The notes below the pieces were generated by a model. It was given only the letters and a program-made list of their open reading frames with translations. It was not told where the DNA came from and searched no databases. A program made the position numbers and the translations under genes. From Lentisphaerota bacterium (GTDB taxonomy: Bacteria > Verrucomicrobiota > Lentisphaeria > Victivallales > Victivallaceae), in contig SUWF01000006.1 of NCBI GenBank assembly GCA_015061575.1, positions 1 through 64,000 of the forward strand: 64,000 bases of DNA, written 5' to 3'. Shown piece by piece: positions 20,602 through 52,806 of the stretch. Each line of letters begins with the position of its first letter. The stretch's first letter is position 1.

Positions 20602-21471
20602 TTATTCACTTAAACCCTGGCGGAACGGCTTGTTATTATTTTTGTTGATCTGATCGGTGGAAATCACATCCACATGGCCGTCAACAAAACAAGCAGGAAC
20701 CGCTTTTTTATCGCCGTGATAAATATTCAATGCATTATCTCCATCCCAGTCCATACTGCCGCGGGAAGCAGTAGCACTGCTGGTTTTAGTATCATTCATC
20801 TTGCAGCAGACATGGGCCAGCATCTCAGACGGGGTTTCAATACTTGCCAGCGTCCGGGGTTTATAAGTAGCATTTACCCAGGAGTACCCCAGCCAGACAT
20901 TCTGGGCATAATTGCATCCCTGCAGACCGAATTGGCCGCGATTATAAAAATCACTGGCCTCCGGTACAGGCGGTGCCCAGGTTTCGGCCGGGCAGCGGAA
21001 ATTGTACATTGCATCGTTTTCGTTACCATTGATGGAGCCCTTTTTCCGGTAAGCAAAACTATTTCCCTCATAAGTGTAGCCCAGATACCCGCCGATAAAG
21101 TTCGGATACCAACGGCCGTTGCCTTTTTCCGTATCCCGGGCCGAATAACACCATTCGGCATTGTCTGAACTGTAAAGCGGAATACAGTTGCCGATGGATT
21201 TGAGCTGAGAAATACAACTGGCTGTCTTGGCCCGTTCGCGCGCCGCCGAAAGCGCCGGCAGCAGCATTGCCGCCAGAATCGCAATAATGGCAATTACAAC
21301 CAAAAGTTCAATAAGGGTAAAGCGTGCTTTACCCTGCCCATGGGCAGGATTTTTGCGGCCGCAGCAGAGCTGTGCCTGTTTCACCGGAATTTCACTCAAC
21401 ATCTCTGCGGTAAAATACTTTGACTTAACATTAACTCCCAGCTGGATACAACTTTCACAAAAAAACCCCAT
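20602..21471 (-). CDS. Pseudopilin-like protein with prepilin cleavage/methylation start
   Basis: A 289-residue type II secretion/type IV pilin-like protein. The prepilin motif [20 protein letters not shown] is preceded by about 50 residues, far longer than a normal 5-25 residue leader. The start at 21471 has AAAGGG upstream; an internal ATG (residue 24, near 21402) would still leave a long leader. After the hydrophobic helix and [10 protein letters not shown] comes a Cys-rich extracellular domain. The C-terminal end [18 protein letters not shown] is close to the H-X9-DG element (spacing 11). It is the first gene of an operon with two exported carbohydrate-type proteins, behind a consensus promoter. 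Confidence 0.88.
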
Positions 21472-22413: not shown

Positions 22414-22453
22414 ATAATCGTTTGATCGATTTTACATATAATAAGGATGGTTG

Positions 22454-23827
22454 ATGTTGAAGATAAACTGCCGCCAGTTGCCGAAAAACGGAATAAACAG
22501 ATTTCTGTTCAAACTGGGGATCGTAATTATCATATTATCCATGTTGCCTGCTCTGCTGATGGCCGCTGCTGACCGCAGCGTGACTGCCGCCGGAGCTGCC
22601 GACAGTCAGCTTAAACATCAAAAAGAAAGTGTGAAAACTCCGATGAAAAAAATCCGGATCCTGCTGCGGGACTTCCGCAAAGTTGTCAAAGATGGCCAAG
22701 TGGTCAACTTTAATATCGGCACCACCGCCCACGGCCCGGGGGCGATCACGGTGCTGGAAAAGTTTGTGCCGGAGTGTGAAGTTATTGTCTGGGCTACGGC
22801 TCCGCTTTCGGAACCCATGCAGCGGATGATGCAGCGGCGTTTTCCGGAAGTTAAAATCGTTTACGGCCGTCTGGACGAAGGAACTCCGGCGGTGGAAGCG
22901 GCGGCCCGCTGGTGCGACTTGCTGCTGATCGGGCCGGGTACCGGTATTGCGGTGCATCGGGATGTGGAGGCGTTTACCCGTTTTTGCGACAAACCTTACG
23001 CCGCTGCCGGGATCGGCTTTGCCGCCAAAGATGTGGCAAAAATGCGCCGGAGCGATTTTATATTTTTACGGGATACGGTTGCGCTGGCGGCGGCAGAAAA
23101 AGCGGAACTGGGCGTGCCCACAGCGTTCGTACCCGATGGAGCTTTTCTCTTTGATGCTGCCGACGATACCGGAGCGGCGGAATTTATGCGGCGGCACGGT
23201 TTGGAAAATGGCAAATTCGTCTGCTGTCTGCCCCGCTACCGCTATACGCCAACGTGGGAATTTTGCCCGGGCGAAACTTATCCGGAAGATCGCATAGCTT
23301 ACAATAAAAGCATGGTCAGGCAGGATATGGAACCACTGGTGAAAGCCGCCTGCCGTGTGGTGCGGGAAAAAGGTTGGAAGGTGCTGCTTTCGCCCGAAAC
23401 TGAACCGGCGATCCGGCTTTGTAAAAATGAACTTTTGAGCATGTTTCCAGCGGATGTCAAACCCTTTATCGTAGTGCCGGATCATTTTTGGGAAGCCGAT
23501 CTGGCGTTGGGTGTATACAAGCAAAGCCGGGGCTTGTTCGGCATAGAAATGCACTCGCAAGTCATGGCCGTCGGCAACGGTATACCGGCCATGGTCTGCC
23601 GCACCAAAGAATTTGGCAGCAAAAGCCAAATGTGGGTCGATATCGGTCTGAAGGATTGGCTCTTTGACTTTGATCTGCCCGGCGACCGGGAGCGTTTTCC
23701 CGAAGCAGTCATGCAAATGCTGAATAATGAAGAAGATTCGGCAAAACAAATAAAACACGCCCAAAGTATATTGCAGGAGCGGTTTGAATTTTTCGGCAAC
23801 TTTATGCGTGAGCATTACGGCAAATGA
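22454..23827 (+). CDS. Polysaccharide pyruvyl transferase-like protein with N-terminal membrane/export segment
   Basis: A 457-residue protein whose residues from about 64 match the polysaccharide pyruvyl transferase (CsaB) fold: an N-terminal Rossmann-like half, LLIGPGTGIAVHRD, a DTVALAAAEK segment, and a C-terminal half ending with GIEMHSQVMAVGNGIPAM, the family's donor-site region. Such enzymes add ketal pyruvate to surface glycans in the cytoplasm. Oddly, residues 15-37 form a hydrophobic segment (LGIVIIILSMLPALLMAA) followed by a linker, which would export or anchor it. ATG at 22454 has AAGGA six bases upstream; an internal ATG at 22643 would make only the soluble domain. Followed by an AraC-type regulator. 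Confidence 0.8.
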   Translation: MLKINCRQLPKNGINRFLFKLGIVIIILSMLPALLMAAADRSVTAAGAADSQLKHQKESVKTPMKKIRILLRDFRKVVKDGQVVNFNIGTTAHGPGAITVLEKFVPECEVIVWATAPLSEPMQRMMQRRFPEVKIVYGRLDEGTPAVEAAARWCDLLLIGPGTGIAVHRDVEAFTRFCDKPYAAAGIGFAAKDVAKMRRSDFIFLRDTVALAAAEKAELGVPTAFVPDGAFLFDAADDTGAAEFMRRHGLENGKFVCCLPRYRYTPTWEFCPGETYPEDRIAYNKSMVRQDMEPLVKAACRVVREKGWKVLLSPETEPAIRLCKNELLSMFPADVKPFIVVPDHFWEADLALGVYKQSRGLFGIEMHSQVMAVGNGIPAMVCRTKEFGSKSQMWVDIGLKDWLFDFDLPGDRERFPEAVMQMLNNEEDSAKQIKHAQSILQERFEFFGNFMREHYGK

Positions 23828-26535: not shown

Positions 26536-27231
26536 ATGAAAAACAGCAAAAAATCTTTTACTTTAATTGAACTGCTCGTGGTAATTGCCATCATTGCGAT
26601 TCTGGCAGCTATGCTTTTGCCGGCACTTTCTTCGGCAAGAGAAAGCGCCCGCAACAGCAGTTGCTTGAACAACCTCAAAAGCTGGCACATTATGTACCGG
26701 CTTTACTGCGATGATAACAATGAGTGGGCACCTTATCCGCATACCAGCAAAGTGCCGCCCAATCCCCCTGAAGGCAACCCCATGCGTTATGTGTGGACGC
26801 TGTATCTTTACGACCTTTACTATCAGGAAATTGAAAACCGGGCTAAAACGGTGAACAGTCTTGAATGTCCAAACTACCGGGAAGATGTGGGCGGTAACAG
26901 CATGAACTATAACGGGTACAGCTGTCATCTCTGGTTGTTTACGAGGTCCCAAACGGAAGTATGTTTCCCGGATAAAACTCCTATTCTCATCGAAACCTAC
27001 CAGAAGAGCTGCTACGACTATGAAGTAGCTACTTCCAGAAGCAAGAAAAATATCTATCCGAATCATGCCCGTAAATACGGTGCCGGGGAAGGACAGCACA
27101 TGGTCTTTTCGCACAACGACCGCAACAACCAGGTTTATGTGGATGGTCACGCCGAAGGCCGCACCTATCAGGAAGTACCCAACGATATATCCCGCTGTTG
27201 CTTCTTTTATTACCTTGACCGCGATTATTGA
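26536..27231 (+). CDS. Pseudopilin-like protein with H-X9-DG end
   Basis: A 231-residue prepilin-type protein. It starts [19 protein letters not shown], so the leader before the Phe is short and positively charged as expected for prepilin peptidase. [18 protein letters not shown] follows. The C-terminal end [16 protein letters not shown] fits H-X9-DG exactly. AAGGAGA lies before the ATG. It is 68 bases after the phosphatase gene and 31 bases before the GH-like gene, so it is part of the same transcription unit. Function is unknown; family members look like type II secretion minor pilins. Confidence 0.9.
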
Positions 27232-30934: not shown

Positions 30935-32080
30935 TCAGGCCAGATCTTTGAGGTAACTTTCGCTCTGCTTTAATCTGGTCAGCATCCGCTCGCGCACGGA
31001 TTTGGCCCGTTCCGGAAAATCCGGATCGCAGATCCAGCGTTCACACTCGCTCATCAAATCATTAAAGTTGATGTCGCTCTGATTGTTGAATACCGGCAAC
31101 CCAAACATGCTCAAGCAGTTGGCTATCTTGCTTGAATTAGCGATCCCGATCCCCGGCACCAGCGAGTTCAATGCCATGATCGTCAGCTGCAGACGGCCGC
31201 TGATCAACAGACTGCAGACGCTGATCGCCTGCTGGATCTCGTCGGGTTCAGTACAATCCAGCAGCAGTTTGTTGTCGGCATCCGGCAGCTTTTCGTACAA
31301 CGCAAGCATCAACTGCCGGTCGCTGCCGGTCATGGGAATAAAAACCAAACGGACATTGAGTTTTTGCTGGAGCATTTGCAGAAAGTCCAACGCCTGCTGG
31401 AATTTGCGCTTGTTGAGTTTTTCGGCAATACATATACCAACTGAACGGCGCCCGGCGGCATCCGGAGTCAACACAGTCCGCTCGGAACTCTTTTGCAACA
31501 CCACGGAGTCAGCTCCGTAAAGTGCCGCCGGAAATTCGCCGGATGTGTGCAGTTCGATTAAACTGGGCTGATCACGCAAAATGACCAGATCACAGCGGCT
31601 TACACATACTTGCAGCCGTTCGCGCATTCTTTTTTCCAGTATTTTTTCCCAATAGCGGGTGATGCCCAGCAAATCGGCGATTTTTTGTTTGCGCCCGTGC
31701 AGCTGAAAGTGATCCGGGTTGAGTTCTCGATTCATGCCTACCTGCCAAATCACCGTTTTCAGCCCCAGCTTCTGAGCGTTTTCCAGCAAACTTGCCCCGA
31801 TGTGCGGATAGTCCGAAAGTCCGCATCCTCCTGCCCAGACAAACATGTCAAAACCCCGGGCAGCCCGCCGGAAATCACGCATAGTCAAGTTGCTGTCAAA
31901 GCCGAATGGCGGCAGGGTGTTGACCTGATATTTCTGACGGGTGAGCTCGCCGGCAGCAGTGGCAACGGTCAATTCCGCATCCGGGAAATTGCGCCGGAAA
32001 ATACCGATTACGCAGTTGAGGATGGCTTCGTCACCAATGTTGCCTTTCCCGAAAGGCACTCCGCCAAGCAGGATCTTCAT
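30935..32080 (-). CDS. Polysaccharide pyruvyl transferase family protein
   Basis: A 381-residue cytoplasmic protein of the CsaB/WcaK fold. MKILLGGVPFGKGNIGDEAIL matches the family N-terminus (GNIGD motif), followed by AGGCGLSDYPHIG, YRWEK-like helices, DLVILRDQPSL (discriminating segment before the second domain) and ISGRLQLTIMALNSLVPGIGI at the donor site. Known members add pyruvate ketals to cell-wall or exopolysaccharide sugars from PEP. The canonical donor-site His in SGRLH is Gln here (SGRLQ), which may mean altered activity. It begins 12 bases after the kinase gene stop and is the last gene of the MotA/MotB-like operon. Confidence 0.85.
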   Translation of the reverse strand: MKILLGGVPFGKGNIGDEAILNCVIGIFRRNFPDAELTVATAAGELTRQKYQVNTLPPFGFDSNLTMRDFRRAARGFDMFVWAGGCGLSDYPHIGASLLENAQKLGLKTVIWQVGMNRELNPDHFQLHGRKQKIADLLGITRYWEKILEKRMRERLQVCVSRCDLVILRDQPSLIELHTSGEFPAALYGADSVVLQKSSERTVLTPDAAGRRSVGICIAEKLNKRKFQQALDFLQMLQQKLNVRLVFIPMTGSDRQLMLALYEKLPDADNKLLLDCTEPDEIQQAISVCSLLISGRLQLTIMALNSLVPGIGIANSSKIANCLSMFGLPVFNNQSDINFNDLMSECERWICDPDFPERAKSVRERMLTRLKQSESYLKDLA

Positions 32081-32092
32081 AACAATAAACCT

Positions 32093-34729
32093 CTACTCTC
32101 CGACAACGCAGCGGAACCCTACATCCGAAAGATTGGAGGCGTAGGCATGAGCCGCCGCCCGGGCAAAACGCTGCGACAGATTGAAACTCGACCCCTTTAC
32201 CGTATAATACTGCCAGGAGCCGGGATTGGTCACCAATTCCCGGGCGTTGCCGGTCAAATCATACACCCCGTAAACCGAACAATCGGTCGGATAACTGCCG
32301 ATATCAGACGGCAGATTACCCGGTGCCGCCTGATCCAACTGATTGATGCAGGCGTAGTTGGGGTAGTAATCATTCCCCCAGACATATTCCCGTCCATCGA
32401 CTCCCCGGGCAGCTTTTTCCCACTCCAATGCTGTGGGGAGGCGGTATTTGAAATTGGTCTTCTGGCTCATGTAACGGCAATAATCTTCCATCGCCGCCGC
32501 CGTGATACCGATAACGGGCATCTTGCCGGAATACGGCACTAAAATATTGCCTTTATCGTCCCACAGCGGCATCAATTTACGGCCCTGATTGGCCGTATCG
32601 TCCACATAGGCCCGGTAGCGTTCACGCAGTTCCGGCGAAGCGATATTTTTCCAATACTGCAGATATTCGGCAATGGTCACTTCGTGGCGGCTGATAAAAA
32701 ATCCCGGCAGATAGGTGCGGACAAATTGATCGTCAAAAGTACGGTCGCCAAAAACAAATGTCCCGCCGGGGATGTAGGTCATCCCTTCCGGATAGCGTTC
32801 CGGCAGCTCAACTTCCACCGTTTCAAGCAAATTGCGGTGGACGGATACCGGAAAACGCACCTCCCGCCGTCCCGGCATGGAAACGGTCAGCAAATAGCAG
32901 CCCGCTTTGAGCTTGTTGCTGCCTTTTTGAAGCTGGAAAATCACATTTTCCTGCAGATCATTTTCCTGCCCAGTTTCTCCGGAGCGGTGATCCGGCTGCC
33001 GGAGCGCACTTATCTTTACATCGGGCTGCTGACATTTGATCAGCAATTCGCCCATATTCTGCTTGAGCATAGCCATCTCGCTGGCCAGCTGCGGGGATTT
33101 GCTGTAAACTTTTGTGCGAATATTTTCCGGCAGCAGCTGCAGCCGGTCACCGACCTGCGTAAGCATAGCATCGTTGCCAACTGCCAGCGCAAACTTCAGC
33201 TGCCCGGTCAGCAGTTCGGCCAGCATCTGGCTGGCGGCTTCAGCGTTGGTATCAAGCTGCAGAAAGTGCATCAAATGATCCCAGATGTTGTTGCAGGCTA
33301 AAGTAAATTCGTTGCTGTAGCGCAAGTAACGACTGCGCAGTGCCATGCCGCTGCCCACGGTTTCGGTCTTGCCGGTCTGAGTGTAAAGCTCGTGCAGTTT
33401 GTTGCGGGTGCTGATCGCAGTATTGCGGGCACTGTTGCAGTCGTTCTGCAAATTATTGATCACGCTCATCAGCGAAGTGGATTCCATGTAATTGCTCAAT
33501 GCTGCTGTTCCCCGCCATATACCCAGCGTCATCAACGCCGCCAGCAGCGTCACCGGCACCAGCGGCCGCCGCCGGATAAATTTGTACAGCCGGTAGAGCG
33601 GCTGCGGAGAATAGGCCGATACCGGGTATTTGGCCATATAGTTACGCACATCCGCCAGCAGCGAGATCACGGAGTCGTAACGCTGCTTTTTATCGCTCTG
33701 CATGGCTTTGAGAGTGATCGCCTCCAGCTCGTAAGGTATCTTGCGGCGGGGCGCCCGGCGGCGGGGGCGCAGATACTTGCGGCTCACAACGTTGCGCATG
33801 ACTTGCGTTACTGTGGAAGCGCCTTCAAAGGGCGACTGTTCCCAAGTCAATATCGAATAGAGGATCGTACCCAGTGCATAAACGTCGGTTTGACAATCAA
33901 GCTGGTCATCCTGCCCGGTGACTTGTTCCGGAGCCATAAAAGCGGGAGTGCCGCTGACTTTTTTGCTGCGGCCGCTTTCGGAAACTTCTTCCTTAATATC
34001 CGGCAGTTCACCCAATTCGATCTTGCGGCGGCTCTGGGAGTTATCGTCTTTTTCGCGGTAGAGGGCGATCCCCCAGTCGGCAATAAACACCTCCCCGTAG
34101 TTCCCGACCATGATGTTGGCCGGTTTCAAATCCCGGTGGATGATACCTTTGCTGTGGGCAAAAGCCACGCCGTTGCAAATAGATATAAAAATTTCCAACA
34201 ACCGCTGCCGGGTGTAAGTTGCGATCATTCCGGCATCGTTTTCTTTAAGTTTACGCAAGATATACGCCAAAGTCACGCCTTCGACCCGCTTCATGGTAAA
34301 GTAAGTCCCGGCGTCCTCAAAGACCCCCAGCCGGTGTACCGGTATGACGTTGGGGTGGTCGATCTGGGCAGTGATACGCGCTTCCCGGATAAAACTGGTC
34401 ACATAATTGAGCTGGTTGCGGTAGGCCGGTCGCAGGATCTTGATGGCGATTTCCCGGTGCAGCACCGGGTCGTGGGCCGAAAACACCGTTCCGATGCCGC
34501 CCATGCCGATGTTGGTCATATTCTGCAGACAGCCGATGGTCGGTTCGCTGGCGGCGCCGACCAATTCGTTCAATTCTTCGTTGGATATTTCGTTGCCCTG
34601 ACTGTCCGCCAGCGGCCCCGCCAGCTGAGTATGCTCAGTAGTACCACTGATCATGCTGTCAGCATCGTCACAATTCCCGTGGGTCGGAAATCCCCACTGC
34701 TCATTTTTGGTATTGCAAATCAAAGTCAT
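32093..34729 (-). CDS. Membrane Ser/Thr protein kinase fused to an FGE/SUMF1-like domain
   Basis: An 878-residue fusion. Residues about 65-365 are a Hanks-type kinase: glycine loop IGMGGIGTVFSA, VAIK-type lysine in EIAIKILRP, HRDLKPANIM, then ADWG where DFG is usual, and GTPAFMAPEQ. A single membrane segment follows near 390-412 (RPLVPVTLLAALMTLGIW), then a helical sensor-like region, and a C-terminal formylglycine-generating-enzyme/SUMF1 fold (about 640-878): MTYIPGGTFVFGD, RLPTALEWEKAARG, LTGNARELV, and GFRCVVGE. The cysteines typical of true FGE are not seen, so it is probably a binding fold. Kinase outside-in signalling is inferred. It lies 38 bases after the coiled-coil gene. Confidence 0.88.
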   Translation of the reverse strand: MTLICNTKNEQWGFPTHGNCDDADSMISGTTEHTQLAGPLADSQGNEISNEELNELVGAASEPTIGCLQNMTNIGMGGIGTVFSAHDPVLHREIAIKILRPAYRNQLNYVTSFIREARITAQIDHPNVIPVHRLGVFEDAGTYFTMKRVEGVTLAYILRKLKENDAGMIATYTRQRLLEIFISICNGVAFAHSKGIIHRDLKPANIMVGNYGEVFIADWGIALYREKDDNSQSRRKIELGELPDIKEEVSESGRSKKVSGTPAFMAPEQVTGQDDQLDCQTDVYALGTILYSILTWEQSPFEGASTVTQVMRNVVSRKYLRPRRRAPRRKIPYELEAITLKAMQSDKKQRYDSVISLLADVRNYMAKYPVSAYSPQPLYRLYKFIRRRPLVPVTLLAALMTLGIWRGTAALSNYMESTSLMSVINNLQNDCNSARNTAISTRNKLHELYTQTGKTETVGSGMALRSRYLRYSNEFTLACNNIWDHLMHFLQLDTNAEAASQMLAELLTGQLKFALAVGNDAMLTQVGDRLQLLPENIRTKVYSKSPQLASEMAMLKQNMGELLIKCQQPDVKISALRQPDHRSGETGQENDLQENVIFQLQKGSNKLKAGCYLLTVSMPGRREVRFPVSVHRNLLETVEVELPERYPEGMTYIPGGTFVFGDRTFDDQFVRTYLPGFFISRHEVTIAEYLQYWKNIASPELRERYRAYVDDTANQGRKLMPLWDDKGNILVPYSGKMPVIGITAAAMEDYCRYMSQKTNFKYRLPTALEWEKAARGVDGREYVWGNDYYPNYACINQLDQAAPGNLPSDIGSYPTDCSVYGVYDLTGNARELVTNPGSWQYYTVKGSSFNLSQRFARAAAHAYASNLSDVGFRCVVGE

Positions 34730-34767
34730 TGCTCCATGTTTTGGGCAGTTATGTTGATTCAGCTGCT

Positions 34768-36564
34768 TTAACGGCGGCGTTTTTTGGCATCCAGCGGCAC
34801 GGCCTGTTCGAGCCAGAAGTTGAGTTTTTCGCTGAACTGCCGGTAATCGCTCTGGCCGGCGGGCTTGGTCAGACCTATCTGCTGGAGTTTTGCAACATCC
34901 GGCAACTCGTTAAAGACAAAGCAGCGGGCCTCCTGCTGACGGCCGAAATCATACTCTTCAAGCGCCACTACGATCGCCGCCAGCTCGCCCTGCTTGGTCA
35001 GCACCAGATCGCCGACTTCGGCTTTGAGTTCACTGGAAACTCTGGCGCCGTTGCGGATGTACAAATAGTCATCTTCGGATTCAAAACTCATGGAACAGCG
35101 GCTGTCCAGAATGGTGCTGTCCTTACCGAAATTATTGATCTTGAACAAATAAAGATCGTGGATCCCCCGCTGTTTGAGTTCTTTTTTGGTCAACAGATTC
35201 AACGGCTGCACATCTTTGCCGGGAACTTCCACAAGTGCCACTCGGCAGTCGTTGCTGCTTACATAGATCGGCCCCATCAACCGCGCTACCGGCGATTTGC
35301 TGCTGCCGTCGGGCTTGGAAACCAGATACTGCAGCTCCACAACCTCACTCAGCGGCGAGCTGTTCTGCCGGGATCCGGCAATGGCCCGCAAGGCCGAAAT
35401 CAGATAGTTTTTGCCATTGACCGCCACCGTCGGCAGATAAAACTCGTTGTGTTCATCCCGATCCCGCAGCAGCCGTTTTTCCCGGATATGCAGCCGCAGT
35501 TTGCGGGCGGATCTTTCGTAGCGGGTCAGCACATCGCTGCGCAGTTTGTTTTCGGCATTCTGCAGCTTGGTGCTGACGGCGTTGTAATCGCCCTTGAGCT
35601 TGGCCAATTGCGATTGCGCCTGTTCACGGCGGGCGCTTTCGCCGGCCAGCTGCTGCCGGGTTGCGGAGAGGTCGCTGACGGCATTTTTCAGCACATTCTG
35701 CATATTTTCCAACCGGGTTTGAGCCGAGGCCAGTTCGATTTCCCGGGCTTTGATGCTCTTTTCGCTGGCCAGCAGCCGGTCACGGGTGGAGGCCAGTTCT
35801 TTTTCCATAGCGTTGGCCCGGCCCCGCAGATAAGCCAGATCGTTTTCGGCGCTGCCCAGCTGTTTGCGGTAAGTATTGGCGCTGTTTTCGGCATTGCTCA
35901 ACGCCCGCCGGACGCTGCCCAGATCGGCCCGCTGGCGGTTGAGTTCCGCTTCCCGGGCGGTGATGCGTTCGTTGAGTTTGGCCACTTCGCCCACGGCGTT
36001 GGAAAGCTTCTGCTGGGCGTTTTCCAGCGAAGCCGCCCGGTTGGCCAACTCTTTGAGGGCTGCGGAGTGCTGCTGCTGGAGCTTGTTCAGATTCACATCA
36101 TTGCGCCGGAGATTTTCCTGCGAGGCAGCCAATTCGGAACGCATTTGTTCATATTTGGCCACGGCCTGATTCTTTTTGCGGATCTCCTCTTCCAGCTCTT
36201 TCTGCAATTCAGTCGGTTTCAACGGTCCGGCGTTCTGGCGGTTGAGCCGGGCGCGCCGTTCCATAAATTCCAACTTGCTGCGGGTGTTGGCCAGTTCGCC
36301 GGAAATACGGTCAAGTTCCTGCTGCCGGGCAGTATTCCGGCGCTCGTTGGCGGCTTGTTCCAAAAGTTTTTTGCGGGCGGCTTCCAACTCAATGCGCTGA
36401 TTTTCCAGCTCGGCAATGATCACATCCACCGTGGAGCGGTCGACTGTTGCCCCGCCGCCATCCTGAAAAGGCGACTCGATCGCCGAAAATCCACCGTTAA
36501 GGTAGATCATCGACGTGATGATAAAGTCGCATATAACAATAAGAATAGAGCGATTCACTTGCAA
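34768..36564 (-). CDS. MotB/ExbD-like transmembrane protein with long coiled coil and C-terminal beta domain
   Basis: A 598-residue protein with no clear family name. Residues 4-24 are a single membrane segment with an acidic residue inside it (ILIVICDFIITSMIYL); the C-D-F-x-x-T pattern resembles the proton-channel Asp of MotB (YADFMT). Residues 55-360 are an almost unbroken heptad-rich coiled coil, predicted from the A/L/E/R/K/Q composition. Residues 380-560 look beta-rich: NGKNYLISALRAIA, CRVALVEVPGKD and GDLVLTKQGELAAIVVAL resemble a degenerate trypsin-like barrel without catalytic residues. The start directly abuts the stop of the preceding gene, so translation is probably coupled. See the findings for the motor hypothesis. 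Confidence 0.72.
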   Translation of the reverse strand: MQVNRSILIVICDFIITSMIYLNGGFSAIESPFQDGGGATVDRSTVDVIIAELENQRIELEAARKKLLEQAANERRNTARQQELDRISGELANTRSKLEFMERRARLNRQNAGPLKPTELQKELEEEIRKKNQAVAKYEQMRSELAASQENLRRNDVNLNKLQQQHSAALKELANRAASLENAQQKLSNAVGEVAKLNERITAREAELNRQRADLGSVRRALSNAENSANTYRKQLGSAENDLAYLRGRANAMEKELASTRDRLLASEKSIKAREIELASAQTRLENMQNVLKNAVSDLSATRQQLAGESARREQAQSQLAKLKGDYNAVSTKLQNAENKLRSDVLTRYERSARKLRLHIREKRLLRDRDEHNEFYLPTVAVNGKNYLISALRAIAGSRQNSSPLSEVVELQYLVSKPDGSSKSPVARLMGPIYVSSNDCRVALVEVPGKDVQPLNLLTKKELKQRGIHDLYLFKINNFGKDSTILDSRCSMSFESEDDYLYIRNGARVSSELKAEVGDLVLTKQGELAAIVVALEEYDFGRQQEARCFVFNELPDVAKLQQIGLTKPAGQSDYRQFSEKLNFWLEQAVPLDAKKRRR

Positions 36565-37110
36565 TTACTCCTGCACTTGGTTGGCTTTGCCGGATGTCTG
36601 CGAAATAAGTTTGGACTTCAACGGATACATCAAAAATACCCGCAAACAGGTACAGAAGATGATCCCGATCAGCGTCGAAGAATAGGCGATCAGCTGGCCG
36701 CTGCTGGAGCTGAAGCTCATGACCATAAAGCTGGATACCGAACCAAACAAGCCGATGTAAAGCGGCAGATCCAGAAAGATATCCGCATTGGCCAGTCTGG
36801 CCAGCTTGACTTCGGCACTGTCACCGGACTTGCGGATCCCCCGGTAGACTGCCACGGCCACAAACAGCACCAGTATCTGCACGATGATGATCCCGGTAAA
36901 GATGTACAAAGCCACGATCCCGGCCCGTTCACTGCGCATACTCAAAGATTGCGCAATATTGGTTTTGCCCAGCACCTCGGTACCGCCGGGGCCGAACAGC
37001 GCCTTGAATTCGGTGCAATTTTTGTAGCAGTAAAAACATCCGGCCGCCACCGCAGCGGATATGATCAGAAAGAGAATGATATTGAGTGTTGCGATCAAAA
37101 ACTTTTTCAT
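36565..37110 (-). CDS. MotA/TolQ/ExbB-like small membrane protein
   Basis: A 181-residue integral membrane protein with four hydrophobic segments (about 3-24, 66-90, 112-133, 139-166). The last two match the MotA/TolQ/ExbB core by eye: DLPLYIGLFGSVSSFMVM aligns with the G-L-x-G-T-V-x-G-M segment, and STLIGIIFCTCLRVFLM with the following A-L-x-T-T-x-x-G-L segment. Family members form a pentameric proton channel around a dimer of MotB/ExbD-type partners, and the next gene codes for such a partner. The large cytoplasmic loop typical of MotA is missing, so it is smaller than any standard member. CAGGGAG precedes the ATG. Confidence 0.68.
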   Translation of the reverse strand: MKKFLIATLNIILFLIISAAVAAGCFYCYKNCTEFKALFGPGGTEVLGKTNIAQSLSMRSERAGIVALYIFTGIIIVQILVLFVAVAVYRGIRKSGDSAEVKLARLANADIFLDLPLYIGLFGSVSSFMVMSFSSSSGQLIAYSSTLIGIIFCTCLRVFLMYPLKSKLISQTSGKANQVQE

Positions 37111-37389: not shown

Positions 37390-38487
37390 ATGTGGACTCT
37401 TAACCGATACATCACAAGGGATTTTCTGATTGTCTTTTCGATGGCGATCGGCATCCTGACTTTTGGTATGCTGGGCGCCCGGCTGGGCGAAGTGCTGGAG
37501 CTGCTTTCCCGGGGGATCCCGGTGGAAAACTTTTTCAAATTCATCTTTTACACCATGCCGGTGATTTTGATCTACACGATCCCCTGGTCGGTACTGGTGG
37601 CCACGATGGTGGTGTTCGGGCGGTTATCGGCGGATTCGGAGGTAACGGCCATGCGGGCGTGCGGAGTATCGCTGCTGCAAATAGTTGCGCCGCTGCTTTT
37701 GTTTGTTATCGGCATGACGGCAATCTGTTTTTATCTGCAGGTCTACGCCGGTCCGCCGATGCTCGGCAAGGCCCGGGCTTTGATGCGCAACACCGCTGCC
37801 ACTCAGCCCATGGCGATCTTTGAGCCGGGCCAGCAGATCGAATTTGAGGGCGCCGTCATTTATATTGACGACAAAGTAGGCACCGATGAATTGCGGGGCG
37901 TGCAGATCTTTATGTTTGACGACAAACTCAATCTGACGCAGGATATTTTTGCCGAAAAAGCCAAACTTACCGTCAAAGAAGATTCCATGCTCTTGAATAT
38001 CAAGCTGTTCAAATGCGTTATCGGTTCTTACGGCAGCGACAACTCCAAACAGACTTTGTTCAACGATGAACTGGAATTCAACTTTGATTACGGCAAAGCC
38101 ATCAACGAAGCCAAAGTCGGCGTACGGGCCAAATTCATGCCCGCTGACCAGCTGCTGGCCCGCATCAAGATCGAACGCAAACGCGGAGCCAGTGCCGAAG
38201 ATATGTGCGAACTGGAAGTCGAACTCAATCAGCGCATTGCTCTGGCGCTTTCGCCGATAGCGTTTTTGCTGCTGGGGCTGCCGCTGGCGATCCGTACCTC
38301 GCGGCGGGAAACTTCCGTGGGACTGTTTCTGAGCGTGATCCTCGGCGGAGTATTTTTCCTCTCGATCATTGTCTTTGAATCACTTACAAGTTTTCCGAAG
38401 CTTTATCCCCAATACCTTATCTGGCTGCCTAATCTGGTCTTTCAGGCGTTAGGCGCAACGATGCTTTACCGGGTATCGCAGCAATAA
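37390..38487 (+). CDS. LptF/LptG family LPS export permease
   Basis: A 365-residue permease of the LptBFG lipopolysaccharide exporter. TM segments 1-3 lie at about 12-115 (RDFLIVFSMAIGILTFG, YTMPVILIYTIPWSVLVAT), a periplasmic jellyroll spans about 130-265, and the last three membrane helices cover 280-360 (LSPIAFLLLGLPLAIRT). RACGVSLLQIV matches the coupling-helix region. I cannot tell LptF from LptG. The ABC subunit and partner permease are not in the window. The ribosome site before the ATG is weak. Co-transcribed with the following binding protein. Confidence 0.9.
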   Translation: MWTLNRYITRDFLIVFSMAIGILTFGMLGARLGEVLELLSRGIPVENFFKFIFYTMPVILIYTIPWSVLVATMVVFGRLSADSEVTAMRACGVSLLQIVAPLLLFVIGMTAICFYLQVYAGPPMLGKARALMRNTAATQPMAIFEPGQQIEFEGAVIYIDDKVGTDELRGVQIFMFDDKLNLTQDIFAEKAKLTVKEDSMLLNIKLFKCVIGSYGSDNSKQTLFNDELEFNFDYGKAINEAKVGVRAKFMPADQLLARIKIERKRGASAEDMCELEVELNQRIALALSPIAFLLLGLPLAIRTSRRETSVGLFLSVILGGVFFLSIIVFESLTSFPKLYPQYLIWLPNLVFQALGATMLYRVSQQ

Positions 38488-38499
38488 AGGTTCAAGGTT

Positions 38500-40362
38500 A
38501 TGAACAGACGAAGCCGTTGGGAAACAGCCTTGCTGGCACTTTTGATCGCTGCGGTGGTATTTTTTGGCATAAGCATAACCAATGCACTGGATCGAAACCG
38601 ATTGGAAATGCTTAAATTGCAAAAACTTTTGGAACAACGCAGGTTGCCCGCAGCAGCCAGCTGCCAGCCCGCCGCCGCTGTTATCGAAAACACTGCTCCT
38701 GCGGGCAATGCCAAATACTTTGACCGGCACGCCCAGTTTGGCGGAGTCATGCGGCGGGCCATTGCTGCCGATGTCGGATCGCTCAATCCGGTCATCAGTA
38801 TGGAAGCAACGGCCAACAGCATCATTGGCATGTGTACTTCAACATTGGGCACCAGAGATTTGGAACATCCGGAAAAGTTCGTGCCGCTGCTGGCCGAATC
38901 CTGGCAGCAGTCGCCGGACGGACGCCGGATAAATATCAAATTGCGCAAAAATGTGTTGTGGCAGGACTTTGTGGATCCGGAAAGTAATAAATATGTTCCG
39001 GAGCGGCCGGTTACGGCGCATGATGTGGTATTTTATGTGGATGTGATCCGCAATCCGCAGGTCAACGCCGGAGCGTTGCGGGGCTACTTCAAGGATCTGG
39101 ATACGATCAAAGCCATTTCGGATCACGAGCTGGTTCTGGAGTGGAAAAACGAGTACTTCCGCTCGCTGGAAATGAGTCTGGGGTTGATCCCGCTGCCCCG
39201 GCACTTCTACTGTCCGGACAACAGCAAATTCGATCCGCTCAAATTCAACGATGACTTCAAACGCAACGGCATGATCGTAGGATGCGGCCCGTACAAACTG
39301 ATCGAACATGTGCGTGACCAACGCTTTGTGCTGAAACGGTTTGATAAATATTTCGGCAACGCTTTGAATATCGCTCCCCCGCTGGAAAAACACGTTCTGG
39401 AAATCGTCAAGGCCGAAAATACCCGCTTGCAGATGCTGCTTTCTGGCGAACTTGACGAATTGTCGCTTTCGGCCGAGCAGTGGGAAAAAATCACCGGCGG
39501 CAAAGAGTTTTCCCGCAAGGTGCTGACCACCGGCGAAAGTTCCAAAGATTTTCCGCTGCAGCCCGGCGAAAGTTTGCGCCGGGTCAAGTATCTGGACAGC
39601 GCCTACAGCTACATCGGATACAATCTGCGCATGGAACTTTTTGCCGACCGCCGGGTGCGGCAGGCACTGACCATGCTCTGCAACCGGGAACGGATCCGCA
39701 ACGATATATCCCGGGGACACGGCCAGATCATCAGCGGGCCGTTTTATTACAACAGCCCCTACTACGATCGTACTATAACCCCATGGCCATACGACCCGGA
39801 ACGGGCCAAAAAACTGCTGGCCGAAGCCGGTTGGCGCGACAGCGACGGCGATGGCATATTGGATAAAAACGGCAAAAAATTCGTCTTTACCGCTTTGCAG
39901 GTAGCCGGCAGCACCACGCAGGAGCGGATGCTGTCGATCTTCAAAGAGGATCTGGCCCGGGCCAATATCGATATGAAAATAGCTGTCGTGGAGTGGCCTA
40001 TTTACATCAACAAGCTGGATAAACGTGATTTTGAAGTTTGTTCGCTGGGCTGGCAGCTGCCTTACGAAAGTGACCCCTATCAGGTGTGGCATTCCTCGCA
40101 GGCAAGCTCGCCGAACGGCAGCAACCATATAGGTTTTGTCAATCCGGAAGCTGACCGTTTGATCGAAGAGATCCGCAAAACCTTTGATGTAGAAAAGCGC
40201 ATCAAGTTGTGTCACCAGTTCCACAAACTTATCCACGAAGAACAGCCGTATACTTTTCTGATGGTGCCGGAGGCGTTGCGGATACTATCCGGCAAGCTGG
40301 AAAATGTGCGTTGTTTTCCGTTGGGTTTGAACAGCGAAGTTTTCTGGCTGCGGCAAAAATAA
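38500..40362 (+). CDS. Membrane-anchored ABC transporter substrate-binding protein (family 5, peptide/nickel type)
   Basis: A 620-residue solute-binding protein of the SBP_bac_5 group. Residues 12-33 are an uncleaved-looking signal anchor (ALLALLIAAVVFFGISI), and no lipobox Cys is seen. The mature part has RRAIAADVGSLNPV, LAESWQQSPDGRRINIKLRKNVLWQD, PVTAHDVVFYVD, and RQALTMLCNRERI, all typical of oligopeptide binders. A Ca-binding-like DSDGDGILDKNGKKF lies in the C-terminal lobe, as in many OppA homologues. No ABC permease or ATPase genes are adjacent. Ligand unknown; it starts 12 bases after the lptF-like gene. Confidence 0.9.
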   Translation: MNRRSRWETALLALLIAAVVFFGISITNALDRNRLEMLKLQKLLEQRRLPAAASCQPAAAVIENTAPAGNAKYFDRHAQFGGVMRRAIAADVGSLNPVISMEATANSIIGMCTSTLGTRDLEHPEKFVPLLAESWQQSPDGRRINIKLRKNVLWQDFVDPESNKYVPERPVTAHDVVFYVDVIRNPQVNAGALRGYFKDLDTIKAISDHELVLEWKNEYFRSLEMSLGLIPLPRHFYCPDNSKFDPLKFNDDFKRNGMIVGCGPYKLIEHVRDQRFVLKRFDKYFGNALNIAPPLEKHVLEIVKAENTRLQMLLSGELDELSLSAEQWEKITGGKEFSRKVLTTGESSKDFPLQPGESLRRVKYLDSAYSYIGYNLRMELFADRRVRQALTMLCNRERIRNDISRGHGQIISGPFYYNSPYYDRTITPWPYDPERAKKLLAEAGWRDSDGDGILDKNGKKFVFTALQVAGSTTQERMLSIFKEDLARANIDMKIAVVEWPIYINKLDKRDFEVCSLGWQLPYESDPYQVWHSSQASSPNGSNHIGFVNPEADRLIEEIRKTFDVEKRIKLCHQFHKLIHEEQPYTFLMVPEALRILSGKLENVRCFPLGLNSEVFWLRQK

Positions 40363-40394: not shown

Positions 40395-41648
40395 TCAAGC
40401 CAGTATCAGGCGGGAATTGGCGTTGCCGCCGGACAGCTCGGTCAAAGCCCAGACCAAAGCATCCAGCCGATCCGGACTTTTCTGGCTGCCGGGCTGATAA
40501 CTGCACATTTGATCTTCCAGCTCCGGAAAAATCCCCACATGATGAACCCGGTTGGCTTCGTATAAAGCAGCGATCGGTTCCGCCCGCAAATATTTTCCCC
40601 GCAGGGCCCGCACCGCCTTGAAAGGCAGCTCCGGAGCAGCATTGTGCAAAGCCATCGCAATCAAATCGCCGCCCTGATTGACTTCGCCCACCACCCGGTC
40701 GGCGTTGAAGCGGTAAAACAGATCCCGGACGGCATTGGCCCATTGCAGCGGCGTACCGTGCATCGTATGGTCAGCTAAAACGTAAAAGCGATTGTGTTCG
40801 TCCCGCCCCGCCGCCACGATGCCGGTCTGGTCGGAAGCGGAAGAGGCAGTTACGGCCGGGTCTACACCGATAACTATCCGCTGCAGCTCCGGCAAAGCTC
40901 CAGACAGCCGGTTGCGGTCGATCATTGCATAGTTCCATAAACCGCTGTTTATATCGTCCAGCCAAATACCTTCCATAAACCGCTGCTGCTGGCGGCGGCT
41001 CAAACTGCCCAGCGTTTCTTCGATGTATCCAGGCGGCAGATTGGCTTGATTATCAGCCGGGTTCATCAACATGCAGGCGTAATTTTCCGGATGTTTCAGC
41101 GGCAGACGGTTCTCCGGTTCGATCTTTTCGACAAAAAGTTTATAGCTCCAATGCGACTTTCCCGCCGGGTTGCAGTCGTAATAGGCCCGGTTGCGCAAAG
41201 TGGTATTCTGCGCCAGCCGGGTCAAAGCGGTGGTGATCCCCGAATAAGGTATTTCGGAACACTCGTTAAAGTAGATCGTGGCAAATTCCCGGCCCAGGAT
41301 CCGGTCGGCCCGTTCGTCGGCATCCAGCCCGCCCAGCCAGATCTCGGAGGCGTTGGGCAGCCGGAAAAAATTATCGCTCTTGATGTACTCTATACGCAAG
41401 TCAGGGAAAGCCAGCCGCACCACTTTGGGCAAAGTGTCGAACCCGACTGCATATCTGGCTCCATTGCCGTGAAAACGCAGTATGGCGTGCCGGCTGCCCG
41501 GCGCCTTTAACGCCCGCACCAGCAGAGCATATATGAGAATAAAAGTTTTACCCGACCGGGAACCGCCGAATAGCAGAATGTGCCGGGCGGGTGACTGCAG
41601 CAATTCAATGGCCCGCTGCTGAGCCGGAGTCTTTTCAAATCTTTTCAT
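40395..41648 (-). CDS. Orphan phage terminase large subunit
   Basis: A 417-residue TerL-type protein, the ATPase/nuclease that packages phage DNA. N-terminal ATPase: Walker A GGSRSGKTFI, Walker B FATIYFNECSE (N-E instead of the usual D-E), and the C-motif region. C-terminal RNase H-like nuclease: VIGVDPAVTASSASDQTG with the metal Asp, and a second acidic site SPDRLDALVWAL. All core motifs except Walker B are present, so it seems intact. The frame extends to a TTG at 41654, but the ATG at 41648 is favoured although no good ribosome site is seen. No portal, capsid, small terminase or integrase gene is nearby, and codon use resembles its neighbours. Confidence 0.85.
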   Translation of the reverse strand: MKRFEKTPAQQRAIELLQSPARHILLFGGSRSGKTFILIYALLVRALKAPGSRHAILRFHGNGARYAVGFDTLPKVVRLAFPDLRIEYIKSDNFFRLPNASEIWLGGLDADERADRILGREFATIYFNECSEIPYSGITTALTRLAQNTTLRNRAYYDCNPAGKSHWSYKLFVEKIEPENRLPLKHPENYACMLMNPADNQANLPPGYIEETLGSLSRRQQQRFMEGIWLDDINSGLWNYAMIDRNRLSGALPELQRIVIGVDPAVTASSASDQTGIVAAGRDEHNRFYVLADHTMHGTPLQWANAVRDLFYRFNADRVVGEVNQGGDLIAMALHNAAPELPFKAVRALRGKYLRAEPIAALYEANRVHHVGIFPELEDQMCSYQPGSQKSPDRLDALVWALTELSGGNANSRLILA

Positions 41649-41733
41649 AAACAAAAATATACTTGGAAGGTTTCTTTGAGCAGCCTGAGAGCTGCCTCAT
41701 AGTGATAACTATTGATTTTTTGTCAATATAAAG

Positions 41734-52041: not shown

Positions 52042-52806
52042 ATGCAAAAATCAAAATCCACCACTGCAAAGTCAAAAATTCTGAGCTTCACCCTCATTGA
52101 ACTCCTGGTTGTGATCGCCATCATTGCAATATTAGCGGCGATGCTGCTGCCGGCGCTTTCGGCCGCCCGGGAGCGGGCCCGGCAGAGCAACTGCGTAAAT
52201 AAACTCAAGCAGATCGGGTTGGCTGCAATGATGTATGCCGAAGACTATGACGGCTGTCTGCCGGTACATGCCCTGCACAAAAATTGTACTGCCAGCTGCC
52301 AAAAATGTGTGGCCATCAGCGGTTGGAGCATTACCGGCGGAGTCAGCAACGGCGGCTCGCAGCCGCAAACCAAGTTGATTTATGGCGGATATTTCGGCGA
52401 ACTGGCCAACGATATTCTCGATAAAGTGCAAAAGTTCCAGTGTCCCAGCGATACGCAGTATTTTGATATAAGCCAAAGCAAATGTTCTTACCTTATGCTG
52501 ATCCGCAGTCACGGTAGCTGCAAAGCCTGGACTTTGAGATCGGATCGTCCGCTGGGGCCCCGTATGATCATCGGCCGGGATGACCCGATGGCTTCTTTTG
52601 CTATGGATATGGCGCCGTGGAGCGGTCAGACGATCCCCTCCGGCGGTACTCCGACAATGATCCACCCCGGCGTGGTCAACACGCTGCGGCTGGGCGGTCA
52701 CGTTACAGCAGTAAATGCCCAGGAAAGCAAAATAAAGGCTGTTATATTCCAGACGGGTATTTACACTTTGATTGAGCCGGATGTTTCCAGCAACTACAAC
52801 CGCTGA
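52042..52806 (+). CDS. Pseudopilin-like protein
   Basis: A 254-residue prepilin-type protein with a leader of 17 residues up to SF, then [20 protein letters not shown] and [10 protein letters not shown]. The soluble part contains several Cys. Near the C-terminus [13 protein letters not shown] follows the H-X9 pattern but with GG in place of DG, so the usual H-X9-DG end is degenerate. GGGAGA lies before the ATG. It sits between a regulator and a secreted GH-like gene with gaps of 35 and 16 bases. Confidence 0.9.

Follow-up and report, generated by a model that had tools for sequence, protein, structure and literature searches.

The four consecutive minus-strand genes considered here, located in a 64,000-nucleotide stretch of DNA from a Lentisphaerota bacterium (the window), raise the question whether together they specify a new ion-driven surface signalling system, as an earlier note had suggested, and if not, which of them belong together. 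Motors of the 5:2 type power flagella, TonB uptake, the Tol-Pal system, gliding and type IX secretion, and Zorya defence, and to our knowledge few output heads are known for them. The layout described in the earlier note, with gaps of 0, 38 and 12 bases, was recovered with the same reading frames and spacing (Table 1), while the single promoter postulated ahead of it was not: a consensus scan returned nothing above chance, and nothing 5' of gene A on the minus strand. The longest reading frame of gene B comprises 598 aa (34768-36564, from TTG 36564), and its true start is probably the GTG at 36558, since B proteins of relatives begin with MNRSIL. Pfam matches were obtained for the kinase (Pkinase 5e-36, FGE 1.5e-26) and the pyruvyl transferase (PS_pyruv_trans 8e-17). 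A and B are single-copy in their own genome, apart from a chance-level match to A (E 0.115), and the same genome holds five recognised MotA_ExbB genes.

Table 1. Features of the four-gene locus in the window (segments of protein A in residues)
Feature	Position	Strand	Description
Gene A, 181 aa	36565-37110	minus	putative divergent MotA/TolQ/ExbB superfamily member, predicted four-helix channel-like subunit
Conserved elements of A			TM3 LPLYIGLFGSV, about 115-131; TM4 IAYSSTLIGI, about 135-165; invariant Gln78
Gene B, 596 aa	34768-36558	minus	invariant Asp in an N-terminal helix; rod of coiled coil; HtrA-like pseudoprotease domain at the C-terminus
B, transmembrane segment MNRSILIVICDFIITSMIYL	36500-36558 (approximate bounds)	minus	invariant Asp11
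B, C-terminal part as modelled	34771-35604	minus	coiled-coil end and HtrA/DegS-like fold, no GxSGG motif
Transmembrane Ser/Thr kinase, 878 aa	32093-34729	minus	PEGA-like segment and FGE-like domain, presumably catalytically dead; lineage-specific companion of A-B
Pyruvyl transferase-like gene, 381 aa	30935-32080	minus	outside the system; orthologues elsewhere in the genus

A comparison with relatives revealed that the four-gene order is not conserved: A and B are kept, often with the kinase, while the pyruvyl transferase is not. Matches to A, and likewise to B, occur in 45 of 61 relatives, the pair being syntenic in about 35, and this conservation is far beyond chance. In all sampled loci taken together, A is immediately followed by B in 151 of 152 cases, generally with a 4-base overlap (median spacing -4 bases; 141 of 145 spacings within -20 to +60). 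The sole A gene that has no B behind it (L206:7573-9243) is followed, 4 bases downstream, by an LpxA-like gene. The profile of A matches 125 of the 388 genomes sampled across the phylum, about a third, and 55 of 198 genera. For most genera of the family, the loci that were retrieved show A, B and the kinase in synteny. Moreover, both genes are present in the cultured species Victivallis vadensis (DSM 14823), where the kinase adjoins B; this match came from a scan of a genome collection with Lentisphaeria-specific patterns and says little on the distribution beyond the phylum. In the tree of A the families cluster, and the distribution of the pair is lineage-like, as expected of a housekeeping trait. 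On the other side of A, an lptF-like gene and a gene for an oligopeptide-binding protein (37390-40362, plus strand) diverge from it, an arrangement that recurs in several relatives (L042-L045, L056, L061-L063). Between an oligopeptide-binding protein gene and metK lies a lone large terminase subunit (Terminase_6N/6C; 40395-41654, minus strand), close to which no further phage gene was noticed. Genes with prepilin-type N-terminal methylation motifs lie scattered at three places of the window, 20602-21471, 26536-27231 and 52042-52806.

The pyruvyl transferase had been taken by the earlier note for a component of its four-gene surface signalling system, which would concern surface polysaccharides, and in the source genome the 12-base gap and shared strand are in line with that view. 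In all four same-genus relatives, however, its orthologues (67-73% identity) reside on other contigs, and therefore the gene falls outside the A-B system. Most of the family lacks it, and in the fetched loci it was never syntenic with A, B and the kinase. It is an accidental neighbour, and a four-gene system that includes it is exceedingly improbable. A second pyruvyl transferase-like protein with a weaker match (9.3e-7) is encoded at 22451-23827 on the plus strand of the window.

Protein A escapes the standard classifications. No assignment could be made with Pfam, NCBIfam or PADLOC, the MotA_ExbB family (PF01618) being absent even at E<=10, and a sequence search of the PDB with A gave chance matches only. 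The AlphaFold model of A (72 sequences, pLDDT 89.9) contains helices at residues 2-31, 50-94, 115-131 and 135-179, that is, four helices of membrane-spanning length in a MotA-like order, without the big cytoplasmic domain of MotA; the short helix 99-113 would be cytoplasmic by the topology of the model. Chains of PomA, MotA, TolQ or ExbB make up 14 of the top 50 entries in the Foldseek list for the PDB, none of them individually significant (best 0.65). When the profile of A was aligned with MotA_ExbB proteins of relatives together with E. coli TolQ and ExbB, GLFGTV fell on GLFGTV and TxxG on TxxG. A broader set that included E. coli MotA was aligned by hhalign over both last helices with P 1.7e-4 and a probability of 49%, where reversed profiles gave P values of 0.05-0.7 and none of 25 unrelated families did better than 0.014. 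Under the same profile the medians of two sequence subfamilies of the superfamily exceeded 158 of 163 and 163 of 163 transmembrane decoys, a comparison whose Mann-Whitney p-values overstate the significance because the reference proteins are interrelated; E. coli MotA alone did not stand out among the 163 decoys. Both motifs, GLxGT in the penultimate helix and TxxG in the final one, are conserved across the phylum, with a T to N change at the TxxG threonine in one family (f25). It is this combined evidence, namely the rank of the profile against decoys, the motifs in register, the helix order and the Foldseek list, rather than any single match, that places A, by sequence and model, in the MotA/TolQ/ExbB superfamily as a divergent member. 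The resemblance of its GLFGSV core to these proteins, pointed out in the earlier note, is thus borne out. Among the recognised members, those closest to A are the GFIGTV-type MotA_ExbB genes, of which the own genome has three (about 270-300 aa; G000 contigs C24, C58 and C8), and the GLMGTL/AFATTVVG-type genes of about 190 aa in relatives (L275-L279).

In many of the more distant families A forms the C-terminal part of a protein of 540-600 residues, with B directly after it. The N-terminal addition, about 400 residues long, sits on the presumed ring subunit and consists of a transmembrane segment, a part of about 330 residues and a second transmembrane segment (L200-L218, e.g. L203:8356-10092 and L209:7604-9316). 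No family match was found for this region; its 330-residue part is probably extracytoplasmic. Long and short forms are nearly separate on the A tree (2 changes).

In position and architecture protein B resembles a MotB/ExbD partner, with an Asp in a lone N-terminal helix that is followed by a rod. Its N-terminus is MNRSILIVICDFIVLS-like, and the motif search matched 98 N-termini, every one of them with the Asp; among 17 unmatched entries, most are misses of the regular expression that carry the Asp too. A signal peptide was considered for this segment and rejected on the argument that an invariant Asp lies in its hydrophobic core. A basic residue precedes the helix and few follow, which suggests a topology with the N-terminus inside and the C-terminus outside. 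The MotB-like character proposed in the earlier note therefore holds for the Asp of the ICDF motif in an N-terminal helix encoded beside A, but not for sequence similarity: against ExbD, TolR and MotB sequences, the B helix scored no better than decoys. Pfam offered no match for B and no peptidoglycan-binding, OmpA-like or TolR/ExbD domain; matches that emerged from Pfam, NCBIfam and PADLOC were rejected as coiled-coil noise, and a sequence search of the PDB returned coiled coils only. The coiled coil itself, estimated earlier at about 300 residues, spans about 285, and about 190 in distant families.

What had gone unmentioned in the earlier description is the C-terminal domain of B. The model of residues 319-596 (pLDDT 90.5) retrieved DegP, DegQ, DegS and HtrA1 in Foldseek (E 4.5e-6, probability 1.00). 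The GxSGG motif is missing from all 154 B heads, and a Ser occupies the aligned catalytic position in only 1 of 144. The head is homologous between Lentisphaeria and the distant families (hhalign 99.5%, E 3e-23); hhalign with the E. coli Deg proteases (DegP/Q/S) gave no sequence link, so that its identity as an HtrA-like domain derives from the fold.

Considering these features together, A and B probably constitute an ion-driven inner-membrane motor of the 5:2 type, a branch of the MotAB/TolQR/ExbBD superfamily. This reading builds on the observed pair and its conservation, the domains found in it, the missing GxSGG motif and the superfamily signal of A; we infer the pentamer:dimer assembly, the ion flow, the force output, the periplasmic rod and the coupling to the kinase. 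By the superfamily logic (PMC9389320, PMC12204202), the rod would be driven by a ring of five A that encloses two B, the Asp carrying the ions. More specifically, five A subunits would form a ring and two B helices its axle, the conserved Asp in each of them binding and releasing ions. Driven by the ion flow, the axle would turn and thereby swing or pull the periplasmic rod, a coiled coil of roughly 200-285 residues that could reach up to about 30-45 nm if straight, and the HtrA-fold head at the end of the rod would bind a client without cleaving it. The same components could also make up a static inner-membrane scaffold or tether, in which A holds the pair of B helices via the Asp, no ions flow, and B, an immobile strut in the periplasm, binds an outer-membrane or wall protein through its pseudoprotease head. 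The long rod and the binding-type head would suit such a strut, as would an A that is devoid of the large cytoplasmic domain of MotA and the lack, outside the order, of a recognisable outer-membrane partner gene close by. Nevertheless, the motifs of A fall exactly on those two helices that in MotA, TolQ and ExbB border the ion path, and the Asp of B is invariant, and we regard a static role as rather unlikely.

The kinase is a conserved companion of the pair in much of the order, in agreement with the kinase-FGE fusion that the earlier note had included in the set: in 83 of the 113 Lentisphaeria loci that could be scored it comes after B. The residues of its VAIK, HRD and DWG motifs are intact in 30 of 30 proteins, and behind a helix near residue 393 lie a PEGA-like segment and an FGE fold. 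The latter has a single conserved Cys, which lies outside the region that we take to harbour the active-site pair of known FGE proteins, and it is on this assumption that the domain is called catalytically dead. In Victivallales the gene for this transmembrane kinase, whose FGE-fold domain would be periplasmic, usually comes next, and the kinase is likely to read or regulate the motor. Alternatively, the B head could be a degenerate, DegS-like ligand-binding domain that senses envelope stress and signals through A and B to the kinase, ion conduction being secondary or absent. Such a sensor would fit the HtrA/DegS-like fold of the head as well as the intact catalytic residues of the kinase and its frequent position behind B. 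However, no sequence similarity between the head and HtrA could be detected, and the kinase follows B in none of the 6 scorable loci outside the order, so that the pair works without it there; we consider a stress sensor of this kind improbable. Surface signalling, as put forward in the earlier note, is thus one option among several; since every scorable locus outside the order has the pair without a kinase, the core is to be seen as an envelope motor or tether to which the kinase is an add-on.

Returning to the motor, a fuller proposal can be made only tentatively, at somewhat less than an even chance: a lineage-inherited envelope motor of the Verrucomicrobiota, new to science, in which the axle continues as a periplasm-spanning coiled coil, an HtrA-fold pseudoprotease grips an envelope client, and a receptor kinase serves as mechanical or stress readout in Victivallales. 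A literature search of open-licence papers other than bioRxiv preprints gave no description of the A-B pair, an absence that is no proof of novelty. If the reading is true, an inactive protease fold would be a new output type among 5:2 motors, and a pair present in roughly one in three sampled genomes of the phylum, and missed by Pfam and NCBIfam, would be a candidate for envelope energisation. In addition, the adjacency of the kinase renders signalling from mechanical input to phosphorylation testable, and the pair occurs in a cultured species.

Like TolQ-TolR, ExbB-ExbD and MotA-MotB, A and B are encoded as an adjacent pair, with GLxGT and TxxG in the last two helices of the A-type subunit, a lone N-terminal helix with an invariant Asp in the partner and, presumably also in B, an extracytoplasmic C-terminal part. 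Unlike TolQ, ExbB and MotA, protein A lies below Pfam detection and is almost without a cytoplasmic domain; unlike TolR, ExbD and MotB, protein B has a coiled coil of 200-300 residues and an HtrA-fold head that replaces the TolR/ExbD or OmpA-like domain. The Tol-Pal partners TolA, TolB and Pal were not recognised in the conserved A-B neighbourhood. With DegS and DegP the B head shares the chymotrypsin-like fold, whereas GxSGG and hhalign similarity are lacking and no PDZ domain was identified. Zorya ZorA-ZorB, named in the earlier note, is a defence system of the same motor superfamily as proposed for A-B, whereas the neighbours of A-B differ from ZorC/D or ZorE, no defence neighbours were noted and the distribution is lineage-like. 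PADLOC gave no match for A and only a coiled-coil-level ZorA match for B (0.029); with this result, the clustering by family and the absence of plasmid matches for B and of phage matches for A, a mobile or defence reading of the pair is unsupported.

The type IX secretion motor GldL-GldM with GldK/PorK, a proton motor, likewise combines an extended shaft in the periplasm with a partner of the FGE fold (PMC9389320; PMC12421860), and this partner, a ring protein, is a suggestive parallel to the kinase. In contrast to GldLM, no GldM-like domains, GldN or secretion genes were seen with A-B, and the FGE fold resides on a kinase. Searches for GldL, GldM and GldN gave no matches, and the FGE part of the kinase scores to GldK/PorK (1.1e-13) at the FGE level only, which may reflect no more than shared FGE ancestry. 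The nearest described relative is the family of vWA force transducers that pair with TolQ-like genes and have been reported in Verrucomicrobia (PMC12204202). There too, a B-like helix with a conserved Asp is proposed to lie inside a TolQ-like pentamer and to carry a non-canonical head. That head is a vWA domain, which was not found in B with Pfam, NCBIfam or Foldseek, whereas the pair described here combines one B per A, an A that PF01618 does not recognise, and a head that resembles an HtrA-like pseudoprotease.
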